64,000 nt of DNA, taken from the NCBI RefSeq assembly GCF_001013475.1, contig NZ_JZEF01000002.1, positions 188,785 through 252,784 on the forward strand. The letters run 5' to 3'. Origin of the DNA: Xanthomonas arboricola pv. juglandis. Its GTDB lineage: Bacteria > Pseudomonadota > Gammaproteobacteria > Xanthomonadales > Xanthomonadaceae. This document shows positions 28,603 through 42,581 of this stretch, piece by piece. Below the pieces are notes generated by a model. That model did not search any database. It had not been told where the DNA came from and was given only the letters and a program-made list of their open reading frames with translations. The position numbers were made by a program, and so were the translations under genes. Positions within the stretch are counted from its first letter, which is position 1, and every line of letters starts with the position of its first letter.

Positions 28603-30498
28603 TCAAACCATGACGCTCTTGAGGGTCCCAGAGCTCCAAAGGTCAGCGGCAACCGCCTGATACATATTGGTTCGGGCATCAATGATGAGCGGGTCCACGT
28701 AGTCATGAGCAGTGAGCGGCACCCCAGAGGTGGAGGTATAGCGAATGATGTTCGGATTGTTCAGGTAGAAGGATTTTGTCAGGCTCTGCGCAAGCACATT
28801 TTCGGAGGCATACCTTGTCAATTTTTCTGTGTATTTCATTGACTTCAGCGACCTGTTCTTTCCTCGGGGAAGAAGGATAAGGCCGCCAATCATTGAACGG
28901 CGAGTTTGGTAGTCGCTCGTGCTGGCAAAAGAGGTGCCGCCAGCTGCGATGATTTCAGCCGCAGTTTCTGCCATCGGGACAGGAAGTAAATGCTCCACGT
29001 CAAAAGTTCTGCTTCCAACAGTTCTATCAGCGTACGCGCTAAAGCCGACGGCACCAGTAATGCCTATCCCGCGCTCTAGAGAATCGGCGAGCCGCGCCAT
29101 CAGGTGCAGCAAATCTTGCTTCTTTGTTTGATCAAAATTTACCAATTTCAGATTGACGACGTAATCGCCAGTGGCAATCTTTGCGTCAATTAACGCAGAA
29201 AGAGCAGAGCTGTCGAGATCGCGCATCTCTAAAGCAAGATCAAAGATGATGTCACGCACGTTGTCGTAAGTATTCTCCTTTCCTTGACATGCTCTCGCTG
29301 TGGCAAGATGGTCTAGAACATAAGAAATGCATTTTATTTTTCGCTTAACATCATCCTCAATATCGCTTGGCTTGATAGCGGAAAGGATCGCCATCGTCTG
29401 CAGCGTTAGCGAACGGGCACCGTTGTAAAAAACGTGACGGTACTCATGATCGTAGCTCTCTTCATATTTTTTGATCCGTTGATAAATTTCGGCGTAGAAA
29501 GGTATTTCTCGCGTCATCAGCCGATAATAGTCATCGCCATTCTTCAGGCAGAGCGAAGACTTGTTATCCATGACCCATCGATGGTAACTGTCACCTATGA
29601 TTTCGAAATCGGCTGGCGCATCGCCACGATTCTTACCGCGAATCGTTTTTGCAAAGCGTGCGCGAAGCCAAGTCTTGAAAAAGTTTGAGTCTTCGTCGCT
29701 GCCGATTTCTTGCAGAACGCGGATAACCCCTATCCAAGCTGCATGTGCCTGCTTGTTCTCGTAATCGACCGATATTCCTGACAGCAGGAATCCCTTAAGT
29801 AGATCAATCGGAGTAAGCTTCAGACCTCGGTCGTTCATAGTCACGAAGACGCGATGCCCATCTTGTTCCTTCGGCACACCAATTTCGAAAAGGCACACGC
29901 GTTCGGTTATGAAGTCTGCCAAGTGCGGGATCAGGTTGTTACTACTAATTGTGTCAGAAATCATGCTGGGAATGCCTTGGTATAGTTCCCATAGCCGCTT
30001 GGTTCCCGGATCAATATTAAGTATCGAGTCGACCGCCTCGGTGAGTTCTTCATCGTTCAAAGCGTGGTTTAACAAAATGTCAAATAGTTGTCGCCGATTG
30101 ACATCCATTTCAAGATTAAACTGACTTGTGCCGGCAATGCGCCGCCTAATCGCTTCCTCGACTGGAGACATGCCAAGTGCAGGATTTTTAGAAGCCACTC
30201 GATCGAGATAGCTCATTAGAAGAAGAAGCGTTGTCACCCGCTGCTGTCCATCAATTATAGCCTTAGCGCCATGCCCTGCATCGGTAGTGATGATGGTGCC
30301 AAGAAAGTAAACGGGGTAACCAAGAACCTCGGTCCGACTGTCGGTGTTTTTCCAAGAGGCAGCGAACGATTCCTGGATATCCGTCAAAAGATCCGTTAGA
30401 TGCTTTAGCTCCCATTTGTAATCGCGCTGGAAGGTAGGTAACGAGAATTTCTGACGCAAGCACTCGTTCACGGTTTTTCTATCGAATGTAATTTGCAT
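28603..30498 (-). CDS. DUF262/DUF1524 protein, GmrSD-like nuclease
   Basis: The N-terminal DUF262 (GmrS-like, ParB-fold NTPase) has PTFQRDYKWE, AIIDGQQRVTTLLLL and FVTMNDRGLKLTPIDLLKGFLL. The C-terminal DUF1524 (GmrD-like HNH) has TFDVEHLLPVP; the following segment reads SMIGGLILLPRGKNRSLKS, where families usually have GNL, so one conserved Asn is Gly here. At 631 residues both halves are in one chain. Related proteins cut modified phage DNA. Codon use and GC content (about 45 percent) differ sharply from the surroundings, so recent transfer is likely. It stands alone, without modification genes. Confidence 0.88.
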   Translation of the reverse strand: MQITFDRKTVNECLRQKFSLPTFQRDYKWELKHLTDLLTDIQESFAASWKNTDSRTEVLGYPVYFLGTIITTDAGHGAKAIIDGQQRVTTLLLLMSYLDRVASKNPALGMSPVEEAIRRRIAGTSQFNLEMDVNRRQLFDILLNHALNDEELTEAVDSILNIDPGTKRLWELYQGIPSMISDTISSNNLIPHLADFITERVCLFEIGVPKEQDGHRVFVTMNDRGLKLTPIDLLKGFLLSGISVDYENKQAHAAWIGVIRVLQEIGSDEDSNFFKTWLRARFAKTIRGKNRGDAPADFEIIGDSYHRWVMDNKSSLCLKNGDDYYRLMTREIPFYAEIYQRIKKYEESYDHEYRHVFYNGARSLTLQTMAILSAIKPSDIEDDVKRKIKCISYVLDHLATARACQGKENTYDNVRDIIFDLALEMRDLDSSALSALIDAKIATGDYVVNLKLVNFDQTKKQDLLHLMARLADSLERGIGITGAVGFSAYADRTVGSRTFDVEHLLPVPMAETAAEIIAAGGTSFASTSDYQTRRSMIGGLILLPRGKNRSLKSMKYTEKLTRYASENVLAQSLTKSFYLNNPNIIRYTSTSGVPLTAHDYVDPLIIDARTNMYQAVAADLWSSGTLKSVMV

Positions 30499-30629: not shown

Positions 30630-31076
30630 TTAACCATCCCGACAGCGCTGCCACCCACCCGCAGCAGCCGAAACCTGCTCCCATCCATTCCGTAGCCGCT
30701 TCATCGCTTGCCCAGCCACGCACGTATAGCCAAGCTGTTTGGCCTCTGTAGTGCCCAGTCCCGGCAGCAAGATGATCGAATCCGATGGAGCGGGACGCCC
30801 CTGGCTACGTGCCTCATTACGAAGGGTCATGTTCTCGATGCCCTGGCAGTAACGCACCATGCCCGGGTGCGGGTGCGCGCGGTATTGCTCGCAATTGAAG
30901 GGCGTGGTGTCGCGCGCCATGGAGTTGTACGGCTGCCGCGTTGGCGGGATGTACTTGCTGTTCGCCTTACCTGCGGCTGAGCGCATGCTCTGCGCCGCCA
31001 CGCCTTGTCCGTACGCAAGCAAGCACAGCGTTGTTAGTGCCAGCACGACACGGTGCGCGTTGATGACCCTGTCCAT
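30630..31076 (-). CDS. Small exported protein of unknown function
   Basis: A signal peptide (VVLALTTLCLLAYGQGVAAQS) is followed by about 115 residues with Cys pairs (FNCEQY, VRYCQG, YTCVAG, WQRCRDG). I recognise no family. The ribosome site is a run of nine G six bases before ATG 31076, a possible phase-variable tract. Confidence 0.7.
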   Translation of the reverse strand: MDRVINAHRVVLALTTLCLLAYGQGVAAQSMRSAAGKANSKYIPPTRQPYNSMARDTTPFNCEQYRAHPHPGMVRYCQGIENMTLRNEARSQGRPAPSDSIILLPGLGTTEAKQLGYTCVAGQAMKRLRNGWEQVSAAAGGWQRCRDG

Positions 31077-31082
31077 GGTGTT

Positions 31083-31091
31083 CCCCCCCCC
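31083..31091 (-). promoter_or_regulatory. G9 tract as ribosome binding site
   Basis: Nine consecutive C on the plus strand read as G9 on the minus strand, with AACACC between it and ATG 31076. It is the only purine-rich element near the start, so slippage could change Shine-Dalgarno spacing and translation. Confidence 0.55.
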
Positions 31092-31206
31092 TTTGACGCA
31101 CCGATCCTAGCCTACGTTGTTGAGACGTGGGTGGTTCAGTCCGCTTAGTATTCGGGGCGCTGTCTTTGGGTGCGTTTTTTTCCCAATGCACACAAGGATG
31201 GTGCCG

Positions 31207-31428
31207 CTACTTCGCGCTGCCTAGATCACTGAGCACATCATCCACCTGCTCGGCCAAGTGCTGCAGGCAATGGGCCCATTGCTGTAGTGGAATTGTTGGC
31301 GTCCAAAGCGTGGCTTCGTCGCGGGTACGTGGTGTGGCCAGGGTAGCGAGCAGGCGCAGTTGGTCGCGTACGCGCAGCAGGTGGTATTGCGTGCCTTCGG
31401 ACATCCAGTAACCGGGTTCGTTGTGCAT
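31207..31428 (-). CDS. Small protein downstream of a C4-like antisense RNA
   Basis: The 73-residue protein MHNEPGYWMSEGTQYHLLRVRDQLRLLATLATPRT... to VDDVLSDLGSAK looks helical and acidic at the C-terminus; I do not recognise its family. I chose ATG 31428 because AAGGAG precedes it at 7 bases. Its leader has the same structure as that of symE and it is oriented away from symE, so it is the second output of a paired RNA-controlled locus. Confidence 0.65.
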   Translation of the reverse strand: MHNEPGYWMSEGTQYHLLRVRDQLRLLATLATPRTRDEATLWTPTIPLQQWAHCLQHLAEQVDDVLSDLGSAK

Positions 31429-31429
31429 G

Positions 31430-31530
31430 CCGCTCTCCTTGCCGTGAGGCAGCTCCCGCTGCACAACGCAGCGGGATGCCGGGAGGCTAGAAACCGCACA
31501 CAGCCGGCGGGCTTATTCCCCTTGCGGGTG
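31430..31530 (-). ncRNA. Structured mRNA leader, target of the minus-strand antisense RNA
   Basis: Read on the minus strand it contains CCCGCCGG, CTGTGTG (31503-31497), GGTTTCTAGCCTCC (31495-31482), then a perfect hairpin CCCGCTGC-gttgt-GCAGCGGG and the AAGGAG ribosome site of the downstream gene. The equivalent symE leader has CCCGTCGC-gtcgt-GCGACGGG at the same place, so stem bases have changed in pairs. CTGTGTG and GTTTCTAG are complementary to the short RNA encoded at 31649-31591. Confidence 0.75.
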
Positions 31531-31590
31531 TTGTATTCGCCGCCCTCCCGGCGTAGGAACGCCGAGCAGTGCCAGGCCAGATGGCCGAGC

Positions 31591-31649
31591 ACAAAAAACC
31601 CACCAAAACTCGGAGGTGGGTACCGCTGTGTGGTGAGTTTCTAGGCTCC
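31591..31649 (-). ncRNA. C4-like antisense RNA, minus-strand copy
   Basis: The minus strand reads GGAGCCTAGAAACTC, ACCACACAGCGG, then the hairpin ACCCACC-tccgagtttt-GGTGGGT followed by TTTTTG, an intrinsic terminator. CTAGAAAC and CACACAG are complementary to the downstream leader at 31482-31503. The layout of short terminated RNA, complementary leader and ORF on one transcript matches the phage P1/P7 C4 antisense RNA. Confidence 0.7.
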
Positions 31650-31656
31650 GGATGGA

Positions 31657-31685
31657 AGTGTGCGGGTGGCGCAGGGCAGGGTCAA
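31657..31685 (-). promoter_or_regulatory. Candidate promoter of the minus-strand C4-like RNA
   Basis: TTGACC (31685-31680) and CACACT (31662-31657) are 17 bases apart, placing a start near 31649, exactly where the conserved RNA begins. The -10 match is poor. Confidence 0.4.
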
Positions 31686-31774
31686 GCTGAGTCGACTGTC
31701 CGAGTGCGGAGAAGCCGCCTGCATAAAAGAACTTTTTGGCTAAGCGCAGCACTGCAATGAGTCGCTGCAACCAG

Positions 31775-31803
31775 TTGACACACTACCCAACGCGTAGCAA
31801 TCT
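31775..31803 (+). promoter_or_regulatory. Candidate promoter of the plus-strand C4-like RNA
   Basis: A consensus TTGACA (31775-31780) is followed after 17 bases by CAATCT (31798-31803). A start about 7 bases later coincides with the first conserved base of the RNA (31812). The geometry mirrors the minus-strand copy. Confidence 0.5.
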
Positions 31804-31811
31804 CGCTGCAA

Positions 31812-31871
31812 GGAGCCTAGAAACTCCTCACACAGCGGCACCCACCTCCGTCAAACCGGTGGGTTTTTTGT
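31812..31871 (+). ncRNA. C4-like antisense RNA, plus-strand copy upstream of symE
   Basis: Reads GGAGCCTAGAAACTC, CTCACACAGCGG, then ACCCACC-tccgtcaaacc-GGTGGGT with TTTTTG, a strong intrinsic terminator. CTAGAAAC and CACACAG are complementary to GTTTCTAG and CTGTGTG in the symE leader (31958-31979). It differs from the minus-strand copy mainly in loop bases, as expected for a conserved RNA. Confidence 0.72.
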
Positions 31872-31939
31872 GCCTGCAGTTTCTTGCATGCGTAATCGGC
31901 GTGACACTTGCGTCGAAAAGCGTCTAATGCGAATCCCTT

Positions 31940-32032
31940 TGGGAAAACGCCCGCCGTCTGTGTGTGGTTTCTAGCCTCCCGACATCCCGTCGCGTCGTGC
32001 GACGGGGCCTGTTCGTCAAGGAGGGCTTTGCC
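31940..32032 (+). ncRNA. Structured leader of symE
   Basis: Contains CCCGCCG, CTGTGTG, TGGTTTCTAGCCTCC, the perfect hairpin CCCGTCGC-gtcgt-GCGACGGG and then AAGGAGG 8 bases before the symE ATG. One frame is open through the whole leader and across the symE start (PAVCVWFLASRHPVASCDGA), and a similar peptide (PAGCVRFLASRHPAALCSGS) is open in the other leader. A translated leader like P1 icd is therefore possible. Confidence 0.72.
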
Positions 32033-32455
32033 ATGCGTCGGTCCACGTCCAGTCCCAAGCCATCGCGCAAGCGCGCCACGGCACCACCGCCTACCGAAGT
32101 CGTCTGGCGCTCGCTGGATCCCTCGATCCAGCCGCGGCGCTACCTCGAGCGCACGCCCATCCCCGAAGCTCGCGCCGAACCCCACACACCACGACGGCCC
32201 GGCCGCCCGCGTGCGCCGCAGCAGTGCACCGTCGGCTATGGGTACTATCCCGACAGTCACCAGCGCATTCCCACCCTGCGCCTACGCGGCCGCTGGCTGG
32301 AACAATTGGGCTTTGCCATCGGCAGCAAGCTGCACATCCGCCAGCGCGATGGCGAGCTGGTCATCAGCGTTGTAAGACCCACGCTGATTACGCCGCAGCG
32401 CATGTGCGCACCACATGTGCCCGGCCCGTTGCTGGAGACGTCGCATGATGAGTGA
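32033..32455 (+). CDS. symE: SymE-like toxin
   Basis: The C-terminal part CTVGYGYYPDSHQRIPTLRLRGRWLEQLGFAIGSKLHIRQRDGELVI matches the SymE toxin family, an AbrB-like fold; the N-terminal 60 residues are basic and Pro/Arg-rich. In Escherichia coli SymE is controlled by the cis-encoded SymR antisense RNA. Here no SymR-like gene is seen. The structured leader and upstream C4-like RNA probably replace it. AAGGAGG lies before ATG 32033. Its 3' end overlaps a sigma factor frame. Confidence 0.8.
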   Translation: MRRSTSSPKPSRKRATAPPPTEVVWRSLDPSIQPRRYLERTPIPEARAEPHTPRRPGRPRAPQQCTVGYGYYPDSHQRIPTLRLRGRWLEQLGFAIGSKLHIRQRDGELVISVVRPTLITPQRMCAPHVPGPLLETSHDE

Positions 32456-33185
32456 GGGCATGACCGGCGCGTCGCATGCAGACCGCCACGGTGTCATCGA
32501 CCAGGTGATCGCGGCACGCGCATACGCCGCAAGCGCGGTGCCGGTTGAGCGATACGGCAGCCGCCCGTGGCGCCACCGCAGCGCCTACGCCGTGCGCGAG
32601 TTGCCGGCCCGCGCGCCCATGGCGGGCATCTACGCGCTTGGCCGCTTCACCACGCGCTGGCAGGTGCGCGAGGAGCCCGCGCCAGCCAGGGAGCGCTTCG
32701 ACCAGGCCGTGGTGCAGCTGCAGGCGGAGCTGCTCACCTACATGCGGCGGCGTCTGCGCGACCCGCACACCGCCGCCGACCTCGCCCAGGAAGCGCTGCT
32801 GCGCCTGCTGGCCTACCGCGACACGCCAGACATCCACAGCTACAAGCTGCTGCTGTACCGCATCGCCCACAACGTGGTGCTGGAGCATTGGCGCACGCGC
32901 CACCGCAGGCACGCCTCCCGCCATGTGCCGCTGGAGGGCAGCGAACCGCTCGCCGCCGCCGGCACGGCGGTGGACCAGCTGGTGGACGCCCGCCGCACCC
33001 TGCAGTACCTGCACACCCGCACGCTGCCCGCGCTGCCGCCCAAGTGCCGCCAGGCCTTCATGCTCAACCGCTTCCACGGCCTCACCTACCCGGAAGTCGC
33101 CGCCGTCATGGGCATCTCGGTCAAGATGGTGGAAAAGCACATCAGCCGCGCCCTGGCCGCCTGCCGCGCGGCGGTGAGCGAGTAA
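32445..33185 (+). CDS. ECF sigma factor, FecI-like
   Basis: Sigma region 2 (FDQAVVQLQAELLTYMRRRLRDPHTAADLAQEALLRLLAYRDTPDIHSYKLLLYRIAHNVVLEHWR) and region 4 (LPPKCRQAFMLNRFHGLTYPEVAAVMGISVKMVEKHISRALAACRAAV) are complete. The usual FecR anti-sigma factor and TonB receptor do not follow. ATG 32445 overlaps symE by 11 bases and has GGAG 7 bases upstream, giving an 80-residue extension unlike known FecI proteins. A start near 32667 (GTG) would give a normal length. Either way, the junction with symE looks recent. Confidence 0.8.
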   Translation: MMSEGMTGASHADRHGVIDQVIAARAYAASAVPVERYGSRPWRHRSAYAVRELPARAPMAGIYALGRFTTRWQVREEPAPARERFDQAVVQLQAELLTYMRRRLRDPHTAADLAQEALLRLLAYRDTPDIHSYKLLLYRIAHNVVLEHWRTRHRRHASRHVPLEGSEPLAAAGTAVDQLVDARRTLQYLHTRTLPALPPKCRQAFMLNRFHGLTYPEVAAVMGISVKMVEKHISRALAACRAAVSE

Positions 33186-42382: not shown

Positions 42383-42490
42383 GTGGCGCTAACGCCGCAG
42401 GCCGCACTATGCGTCACCAGCTGTGCAGCCCTAGAGCATCTAGGCAGCTTAAAGGGTGCAGGCATCCGCAGTTGGACCACTTTCGATACG

Positions 42491-42517
42491 AAGACACCGC
42501 GCACTGCGCGGTGTCTT
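42491..42517 (-). terminator. Strong perfect hairpin
   Basis: AAGACACCGCGCA and TGCGCGGTGTCTT form a perfect 13-bp stem around one central base. It lies 65 bases past the emfourin stop on the minus strand and 109 bases upstream of the HDOD start. It could end the protease operon; there is no clear T run. Confidence 0.55.
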
Positions 42518-42581
42518 CGTTTGTGGATGGCGATGGGTACGCGCGCTGTATCGTTTGCGGCGGCATTGCGGCACAAACGCG

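Follow-up and report, generated by a model that had tools for sequence, protein, structure and literature searches.

The C4 RNA of phage P1 is released through RNase P processing. In the P1 record, the elements run in the order a1, b1, c4, a2, b2, icd and ant; a1b1 comprises a hairpin followed by a tag that ends in CGG and then a terminator (TTTTTGTG), and in C4 an outer stem closes over two hairpins; the loop of the second hairpin holds one complement and the next junction the other. Rfam groups C4 (RF01695) and c4-a1b1 (RF03163) in clan CL00128, and c4-a1b1 is listed in the accessible part of PMC2864571. A comparable arrangement is described for IsrK of Salmonella Gifsy-1 (RF01394), where, according to the accessible text of PMC4825925, one promoter yields a short terminated RNA and a read-through mRNA, IsrK binds this mRNA and raises its translation, and a processed RNA of about 80 nt lies 3′ of IsrK. 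The authors likened the processed RNA to CI/seqA of phage P4, in which CI brings about termination through pairing with the upstream seqA; in an IsrK co-expression test, however, growth arrest was stronger, and a CI-like termination role of the processed RNA did not fit (PMC4825925, same portion).

The small RNA sRNA-Xcc1 (RF02221) is described, in the portions of the literature available to us, as a virulence-linked or integron-cassette sRNA located 5′ of symE, with no mention of an upstream pairing partner or a C4-type layout. Northern blotting of the X. campestris RNA showed only one band, near 100 nt, and RACE gave a size of 88 nt (PMC2996969, in part). Of the cassettes in integrons of Xanthomonas, that of symE with sRNA-Xcc1 is the most widely spread, 'suggesting a divergent regulatory mechanism', and a gene cassette context is reported there for other symE/sRNA-Xcc1 copies (PMC12444791, in part). 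One Xylella strain holds seven sRNA-Xcc1 copies, treated as many-target sRNAs, and the table for another strain places C4, isrK and sRNA-Xcc1 side by side, with no relation drawn between them in the text available (PMC12189769, in part). In Escherichia coli, SymE is under the control of SymR, which lies opposite the 5′ end of symE (PMC1891008, in part). In the limited part of the literature naming sRNA-Xcc1 that was searched, no link of sRNA-Xcc1 or SymE to C4 was found.

The window analysed here is a stretch of 64,000 nt of Xanthomonas arboricola pv. juglandis (contig 2, positions 188785-252784; genome of 5.08 Mb). Two divergent arms meet in it, each comprising, in order, a promoter, a short terminator-ended RNA, a domain of about 85 nt, a hairpin, a Shine–Dalgarno sequence and an ORF (Table 1). 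In both arms, the short RNA presents block A in a hairpin loop followed by a 7-nt tag (block B), and complements to both blocks are present in the domain. On re-reading the sequence, the two short RNAs, leaders, terminators and stems were all found where the initial annotation had placed them.

Table 1. Features of the two arms (positions in the window; bits, covariance or profile model scores)
Feature	Position	Strand	Basis
Minus-arm -35, TTGACC	31680..31685	-	read from sequence; TTGAC motif position in relatives
Minus-arm -10, CACACT	31662-31657	-	spacing of 17 to -35
Minus-arm short RNA (a1b1-like)	31593..31649	-	sequence reading; comparison of units
Minus-arm block A, TAGAAAC	31643-31637	-	against GTTTCTA, 31494-31488
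Minus-arm block B, CACACAG	31632-31626	-	against CTGTGTG, 31503-31497
Minus-arm sRNA-Xcc1/C4-like domain	31470..31552	-	RF02221, 80 bits; model R1, 83.7 bits
Minus-arm leader hairpin, CCCGCTGC/GCAGCGGG	31455..31475	-	between domain and Shine–Dalgarno
Minus-arm Shine–Dalgarno, AAGGAG	31440-31435	-	sequence
Minus-arm cargo ORF, XAC0095 family, 73 aa from ATG	31207..31428	-	NF047335, 70.1 bits (cut-off 34), scored on the longer reading 31207-31464
Plus-arm -35, TTGACA	31775..31780	+	sequence; motif position in relatives
Plus-arm -10, CAATCT (by reading)	31798-31803	+	spacing of 17
Plus-arm short RNA (a1b1-like)	31812..31869	+	sequence; terminator scan; comparison of units
Plus-arm block A	31818-31824	+	against 31967-31973
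Plus-arm block B	31829-31835	+	against 31958-31964
Plus-arm C4-like domain, decayed	31906..31996	+	R1, 27.0 bits (E 3e-5); RF02221, 17.5 bits (E 6.3)
Plus-arm leader hairpin, CCCGTCGC/GCGACGGG	31986..32006	+	sequence
Plus-arm Shine–Dalgarno, AAGGAGGG	32018-32025	+	sequence
Plus-arm cargo ORF, SymE family, 140 aa	32033..32455	+	PF08845, 75.8 bits (cut-off 29)

The minus-arm short RNA consists of a GAG/CTC stem with block A in its loop, the tag CACACAG, CGG and the terminator CCCACC..GGTGGG followed by T6; its hairpin has three pairs only, which counts against the observation. The plus-arm short RNA has the hairpin GGAG-CCTAGAAA-CTCC, the same tag, CGG and a terminator with T6. A terminator scan listed the plus-arm terminator and missed the minus-arm one, because its loop is longer than the scan permits. 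A simple sigma-70 scan of 30900-32600 returned no promoter, and for the plus-arm -10 a motif-scoring script ranked AGCAAT at spacing 15 above CAATCT. The outer stem of the minus-arm domain is complete (9/9), with the tag complement lying in the P3 loop and the block A complement in the junction; in the plus arm, 6/9 outer-stem pairs remain, and both complements are retained. At 80 bits, the minus-arm leader belongs to RF02221 (membership, at least 53 bits), which the initial annotation had not noticed, and the plus-arm domain scores below that threshold and was picked up only by the broader model R1. Judged by its domain score above the PF08845 cut-off, the plus-arm protein is a relative of the SymE toxin.

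The initial annotation had placed this architecture outside a prophage; units of this kind outside an obvious prophage are common. RF02221 exceeded its cut-off in seven copies in the genome of the window and matched 35/35 genomes of the genus (35 over cut-off, 1 to 13 copies each). Matches occurred in 98/297 genomes of the family sample (96 over cut-off), 50/299 of the order sample (44), 23/369 of the class sample (12) and 55/398 of the phylum sample (40), these samples overlapping in that 31/50 order matches are from the family, and 1/23 class and 4/55 phylum matches are from the order. From sequences at 160 listed RF02221 places, together with those supplied as loci, a core regex retrieved 203 distinct elements. 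Among 198 distinct upstream regions, TTGAC occurred 190 times 35-39 nt 5′ of the short-RNA hairpin, and the best two-hexamer promoter matches mostly reached 8-10/12, against 5-7 for shuffled sequences; the unit therefore appears to start at that hairpin. The short RNA thus seems to be the terminated product, with the gene relying on read-through unless an unseen promoter intervenes. Leader stems of at least 8 bp were found in 91/120 distinct sequences versus 16/120 shuffled ones, in keeping with the stems initially noted in the two leaders.

The complementarity of short RNA and leader within one transcript, as described in the initial annotation, is real. Both parts could be anchored in 186/203 elements, using GCGG with the terminator for the short RNA and the P3 hairpin for the target, with regexes that never compare tag with target, although the first base pair is fixed and the second limited while the others are free. 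Watson–Crick complementarity was 7/7 in 174 of these units, 6/7 in nine and 3-4/7 in three. The 186 units carry 37 distinct target tags, and all four bases occur at tag positions 3 to 7. Among 45 distinct tag/target combinations, 36 were perfect, and 43 when G–U pairs were counted, compared with a mean of 1.06 and a maximum of 6 over 2000 permutations, so the match exceeds chance. A further set, restricted to the 211/216 pairs that matched at 5/7 or better with the best target chosen, is biased towards matches, as are the sets derived from it; the 186-unit count involves no such choice. One unit (L158) shows a clear tag/target mismatch, and in a SymE unit of the window's own genome (L014; contig 2, 290324) the promoter and short-RNA region have been replaced, leaving the target tag unmatched.

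Covariation in homologous loci supports the pairing as well. Of 28 dissimilar representatives, one with a misplaced anchor (L122) was excluded, and the other 27 were aligned with MAFFT, with the pairs between short RNA and domain written as pseudoknots. Two-sided changes occurred in 6/6 pairs of block A, with 100% of cells paired, and in 6/7 pairs of block B, with 95.2% paired, two units misaligned at block B being scored as broken; the outer stem was paired in 99.2% of cells. All five covariation measures lay above 500/500 shuffles. When the pairing was slid by one to three columns, the share of paired cells fell from 97.3% to at most 52.3%, a comparison that favours the unslid version in that the structure was written from one aligned sequence. 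In the same alignment material (A2), a hairpin of the CCGACGC/GCGTCGG type is visible by eye 5′ of the domain in several units; its 3′ strand is common with the outer stem, making the two mutually exclusive.

Predicted duplex energies agree with specificity by tag. Within genomes, cognate pairs had a median of -31.2 kcal/mol (n=211) and pairs with different tags a median of -20.2 kcal/mol (n=720), and in 145/148 cases a domain paired best with its own short RNA or with one of the same tag, the units having been pre-selected for matching tags. For the two arms in the window, duplexes within and between arms ranged from -33.3 to -34.3 kcal/mol, which supports possible cross-pairing of the arms, in line with the cross-regulation considered in the initial annotation. 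Selection for distinct tags inside a genome was considered and dropped: same-tag pairs numbered 23/383 versus 20.4 permuted (core units, 16/316 versus 16.5), so no selection for separateness was seen. A further target of the window's tag elsewhere in the genome was likewise rejected: the pattern TAGAAA..CACACAG occurred at five sites, four being the two units on both strands and one a stray site on contig 1. The block A motif alone, with two mismatches, was not enriched (36 genome sites versus 33 for the reversed control). In a plasmid search, each of 12 records covered at most 13% of the query.

The initial annotation had recognized the architecture of P1/P7 C4, with the short RNA as the counterpart of C4. 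The C4-like layout stands, with two complementary blocks in one transcript, but the parts were assigned the wrong way round: by the order of elements in P1 and the matching folds, the counterpart of a1b1 is the short RNA, and that of C4 is the leader with its sRNA-Xcc1 domain. Like the P1/P7 system, the locus passes from an a1b1 element through a structured RNA with loop and junction complements to a gene. Unlike it, the window's type has no a2b2 copy at the ribosome site, the cargo is SymE or XAC0095 where P1 has icd-ant, several tags occur per genome, and the units stand head-to-head with one domain decayed. The search with the Rfam C4 model that had been suggested as a check, extended to c4-a1b1 and isrK, gave no match in 31000-32500, even at E ≤ 5, and because of this no membership of the C4 family is claimed. 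Judged by layout, the units are C4-type in having an upstream a1b1-like element with a terminator, a structured RNA with two complements and, by motif, one promoter; the second target, a2b2, at the cargo gene's ribosome site is absent from the window's type. Model R1 of the sRNA-Xcc1-like family did not detect P1 C4, a weak test in that its automatic structure holds only 12 base pairs. By covariance models, the likeness to P1 C4 is one of layout and fold, which gives no ground for claiming common descent.

More distant loci come closer to P1. Among 65 loci, mainly from other families but with a few from the same family or order (65/66, L269 lying too close to a contig end; L276 and L281 omitted), 48 had an upstream complement of at least 7 nt to the loop region of the domain (9.9 with swapped partners), and in 34 the ribosome site held a second copy in short-RNA sense (6.2 swapped). 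Their first ORFs (58/61 scanned, with non-ATG starts L288, L290 and L327 omitted and none called in five loci) included SymE 13, Bro-N 5, Rha 3, KilA-N 1 and P22_AR_N 1. A scan of IMG/VR found at least 120 stretches. Among the matches listed there, 72 of 82 gave usable units, several on near-duplicate contigs, with an upstream complement of at least 7 nt in 52 (swapped 11.6) and a ribosome-site copy in 47 (swapped 8.8). First ORFs of these phage units, again among the matches listed (66/68 scanned, two of L428 omitted; domain tallies overlap), carried P22_AR_C 15, Bro-N 10, KilA-N 9, ORF6N 8, Rha 7, AntA 7 and P22_AR_N 5, and none carried SymE.

Within 189 distinct units of the window's type, upstream pairing of at least 7 nt was found in 180; ribosome-site copies of the tag numbered 14, against 11.9 with swapped partners, and so showed no excess. 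The integron-like type had such a copy in 7/8 units, against 3.2 swapped, a figure raised by the repetition of tags. Near the Shine–Dalgarno sequence the tag is repeated in integron-like units L047-L050, L076, L078-L080 and L082 (9/211 units versus a permuted mean of 1.3). A GCGG/CCGC/GCGG arrangement, which could act as an antiterminator, is present in P1 and 33/66 distant loci; short RNAs of the window's type end in CCCACC/GGTGGG in its place in 157/171 distinct cases. Because the window's type has neither the ribosome-site copy nor this arrangement, the link to termination is weak. The label 'XAC0095-like' for a cluster of 96 units is based on one NCBIfam match, that of the window protein, and on BLAST linkage. 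In a cluster of 44 units, L009 and L061 among them, an ORF of about 89 aa comes after the leader, with a SymE-like ORF next in the two units inspected.

The head-to-head locus, whole or partial, occurs in 11/35 genomes of the genus. Both arms share the tag CACACAG in five of them (G000, G001, G015, G006 by two domains, and G009 by two short RNAs) and CAGACAG in four (G002, G004 with one G–U, G021 and G031). In the remaining two, G003 and G020, the SymE arm carries CACGTAG; in the other arm of G020 the short RNA is altered and the ATG is missing from its usual position, though the domain still reaches 65.4 bits. Decay of the SymE-arm domain is seen in 9/9 loci with a shared tag (17-34 bits; outer stem 6-8/9; MFE -16 to -23), whereas the XAC0095-arm domain is intact in all 8 readable ones (81-84 bits, 9/9). 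Where the arms differ in tag, the SymE-arm domain is intact (66 and 67 bits, 9/9). Decay of the SymE-arm domain only with a shared tag is as predicted by one C4-like RNA acting in trans, suggesting that the RNA of the XAC0095 arm may serve both genes.

The layout, the pairing, the covariation, the shared tag, the asymmetric decay and the phage relatives are directly supported by these comparisons. Considering them, we propose, with a probability of about 0.58, that the locus consists of head-to-head C4-type RNA switch units on a SymE gene (plus strand) and an XAC0095-family gene (minus strand), in which the minus-arm RNA represses both genes via the terminator. Each promoter would yield a short a1b1-like RNA stopped at its own terminator, and read-through past this terminator would give the mRNA and, once processed, the C4-like RNA of about 85 nt (sRNA-Xcc1). 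The hairpin loop and junction of the latter may pair with the tag and loop of the short RNA. The intact minus-arm C4-like RNA would then act in trans on the nascent leaders of both arms and hold both genes low by promoting termination after the tag, as P4 CI does with seqA, while excess short RNA would titrate it. We infer processing in this genome, action in trans, termination and the direction of control. The discrete 88-nt sRNA-Xcc1 of X. campestris, as reported in the accessible source, is compatible with C4-like release by processing, and the seqA–CI RNA–seqC immunity system of P4, compared here by its description in part of PMC4825925 only, is alike in that a processed RNA pairs upstream in its own transcript. 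A translation switch was rejected for the window's type. In folding that models no pseudoknots, predicted exposure of the Shine–Dalgarno sequence with the target occupied moved from a median of 0.35 to 0.37, and among 192 leaders 7 gained and 16 lost more than 0.2. Since this type has neither a ribosome-site target nor a consistent Shine–Dalgarno effect, control of the terminator by the C4-like RNA is preferred.

The same pairing could be read from the side of the short RNA, which might act in trans as an antisense antitoxin, pairing with the leader and repressing the ORF, as in type I toxin–antitoxin systems. Its own promoter start and terminator end would suit that role, as would the fact that short RNA–leader pairing is the sole C4-type pairing remaining in the window's type; this is nevertheless unlikely, given that the upstream element in P1 and the phage relatives corresponds to a1b1, the partner of C4, and that IsrK, the only measured short RNA of such a layout, raises translation of the read-through mRNA, 139-fold in a fusion (PMC4825925, in part). 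IsrK itself offers a model of activation, in which the read-through mRNA would stay untranslated until opened in trans by the short RNA. The layout matches isrK-orf45-anrP as described in the accessible text, including complementarity of the short RNA to the processed RNA of about 80 nt just downstream, relatives carry ribosome-site copies, and a gain in exposure is predicted in 3/8 integron-type units. Furthermore, the co-expression result with IsrK takes weight from terminator control and adds it to this activation. IsrK differs, however, in controlling orf45-anrP, and the window's type shows neither a ribosome-site copy nor a consistent change in predicted exposure (pseudoknots not modelled), leaving activation of this kind rather improbable here.

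On another reading, sRNA-Xcc1 would be a virulence sRNA acting generally in trans on many mRNAs, and the upstream complement would be incidental. This reading has in its favour the dependence on HrpG/HrpX cited in the available part of PMC12444791 and the computed target lists in those of PMC2996969 and PMC12189769. It seems most improbable, because the loop has changed in concert with the neighbouring short RNA across 37 tags, which fixed distant targets would forbid. Alternatively, recombination between inverted repeats could by itself have given both arms the same tag, with no regulation of one arm by the other. In one genome (L345, G009), the spacer with the divergent promoters, which separates the two inverted repeats of the short RNA, is flipped relative to the window, which points to exchange between the arms and hence to a further way of equalizing tags, although an assembly error is conceivable in that sequence. 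More weight falls on such exchange because the head-to-head genomes are closely related and represent few independent events, namely one replacement and no fewer than one tag change affecting both arms. Recombination leaves unexplained, however, why SymE-arm decay is confined to shared-tag loci, and we regard it as a doubtful account. On terminator control by a shared C4-like RNA, the window's type, having no ribosome-site target, would be a C4-type switch acting solely via the short RNA and its terminator.

More broadly, and tentatively, phage-immunity RNAs may have been co-opted as barcoded channels serving toxin-like genes, with dozens of tags and several units per genome, one intact C4-like RNA here running two divergent genes. 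A phage-type dormancy RNA switch would thus be seen on back-to-back genes, one of them SymE-related, and the matching 'barcodes' covary across bacteria and phages. For sRNA-Xcc1, which has been handled as a virulence sRNA in Rfam family form, the comparisons supply a definite partner for pairing and make kinship with the immunity RNAs of phages likely. They also supply a probable regulator for many SymE genes found beyond E. coli; as in SymE–SymR, a SymE-family protein would be under RNA control, but with the partner RNA upstream in the same transcript instead of opposite the 5′ end of the gene. The covarying 7-nt tags form a natural collection of mutually distinct RNA switches, and the sharing of one RNA immunity group by neighbouring genes becomes testable.

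Some neighbouring features were also recorded. An ORF for an ECF-type sigma factor (32415-33185, plus strand) overlaps the end of symE, and a matching motif stands at the expected place in 7/11 head-to-head loci. A GmrSD-like protein (28603-30498, minus strand; PF03235, 101 bits) adjoins the locus, and the Xanthomonas sRNA sX2 (RF02222, 109.1 bits) lies at 42416-42520 on the plus strand.
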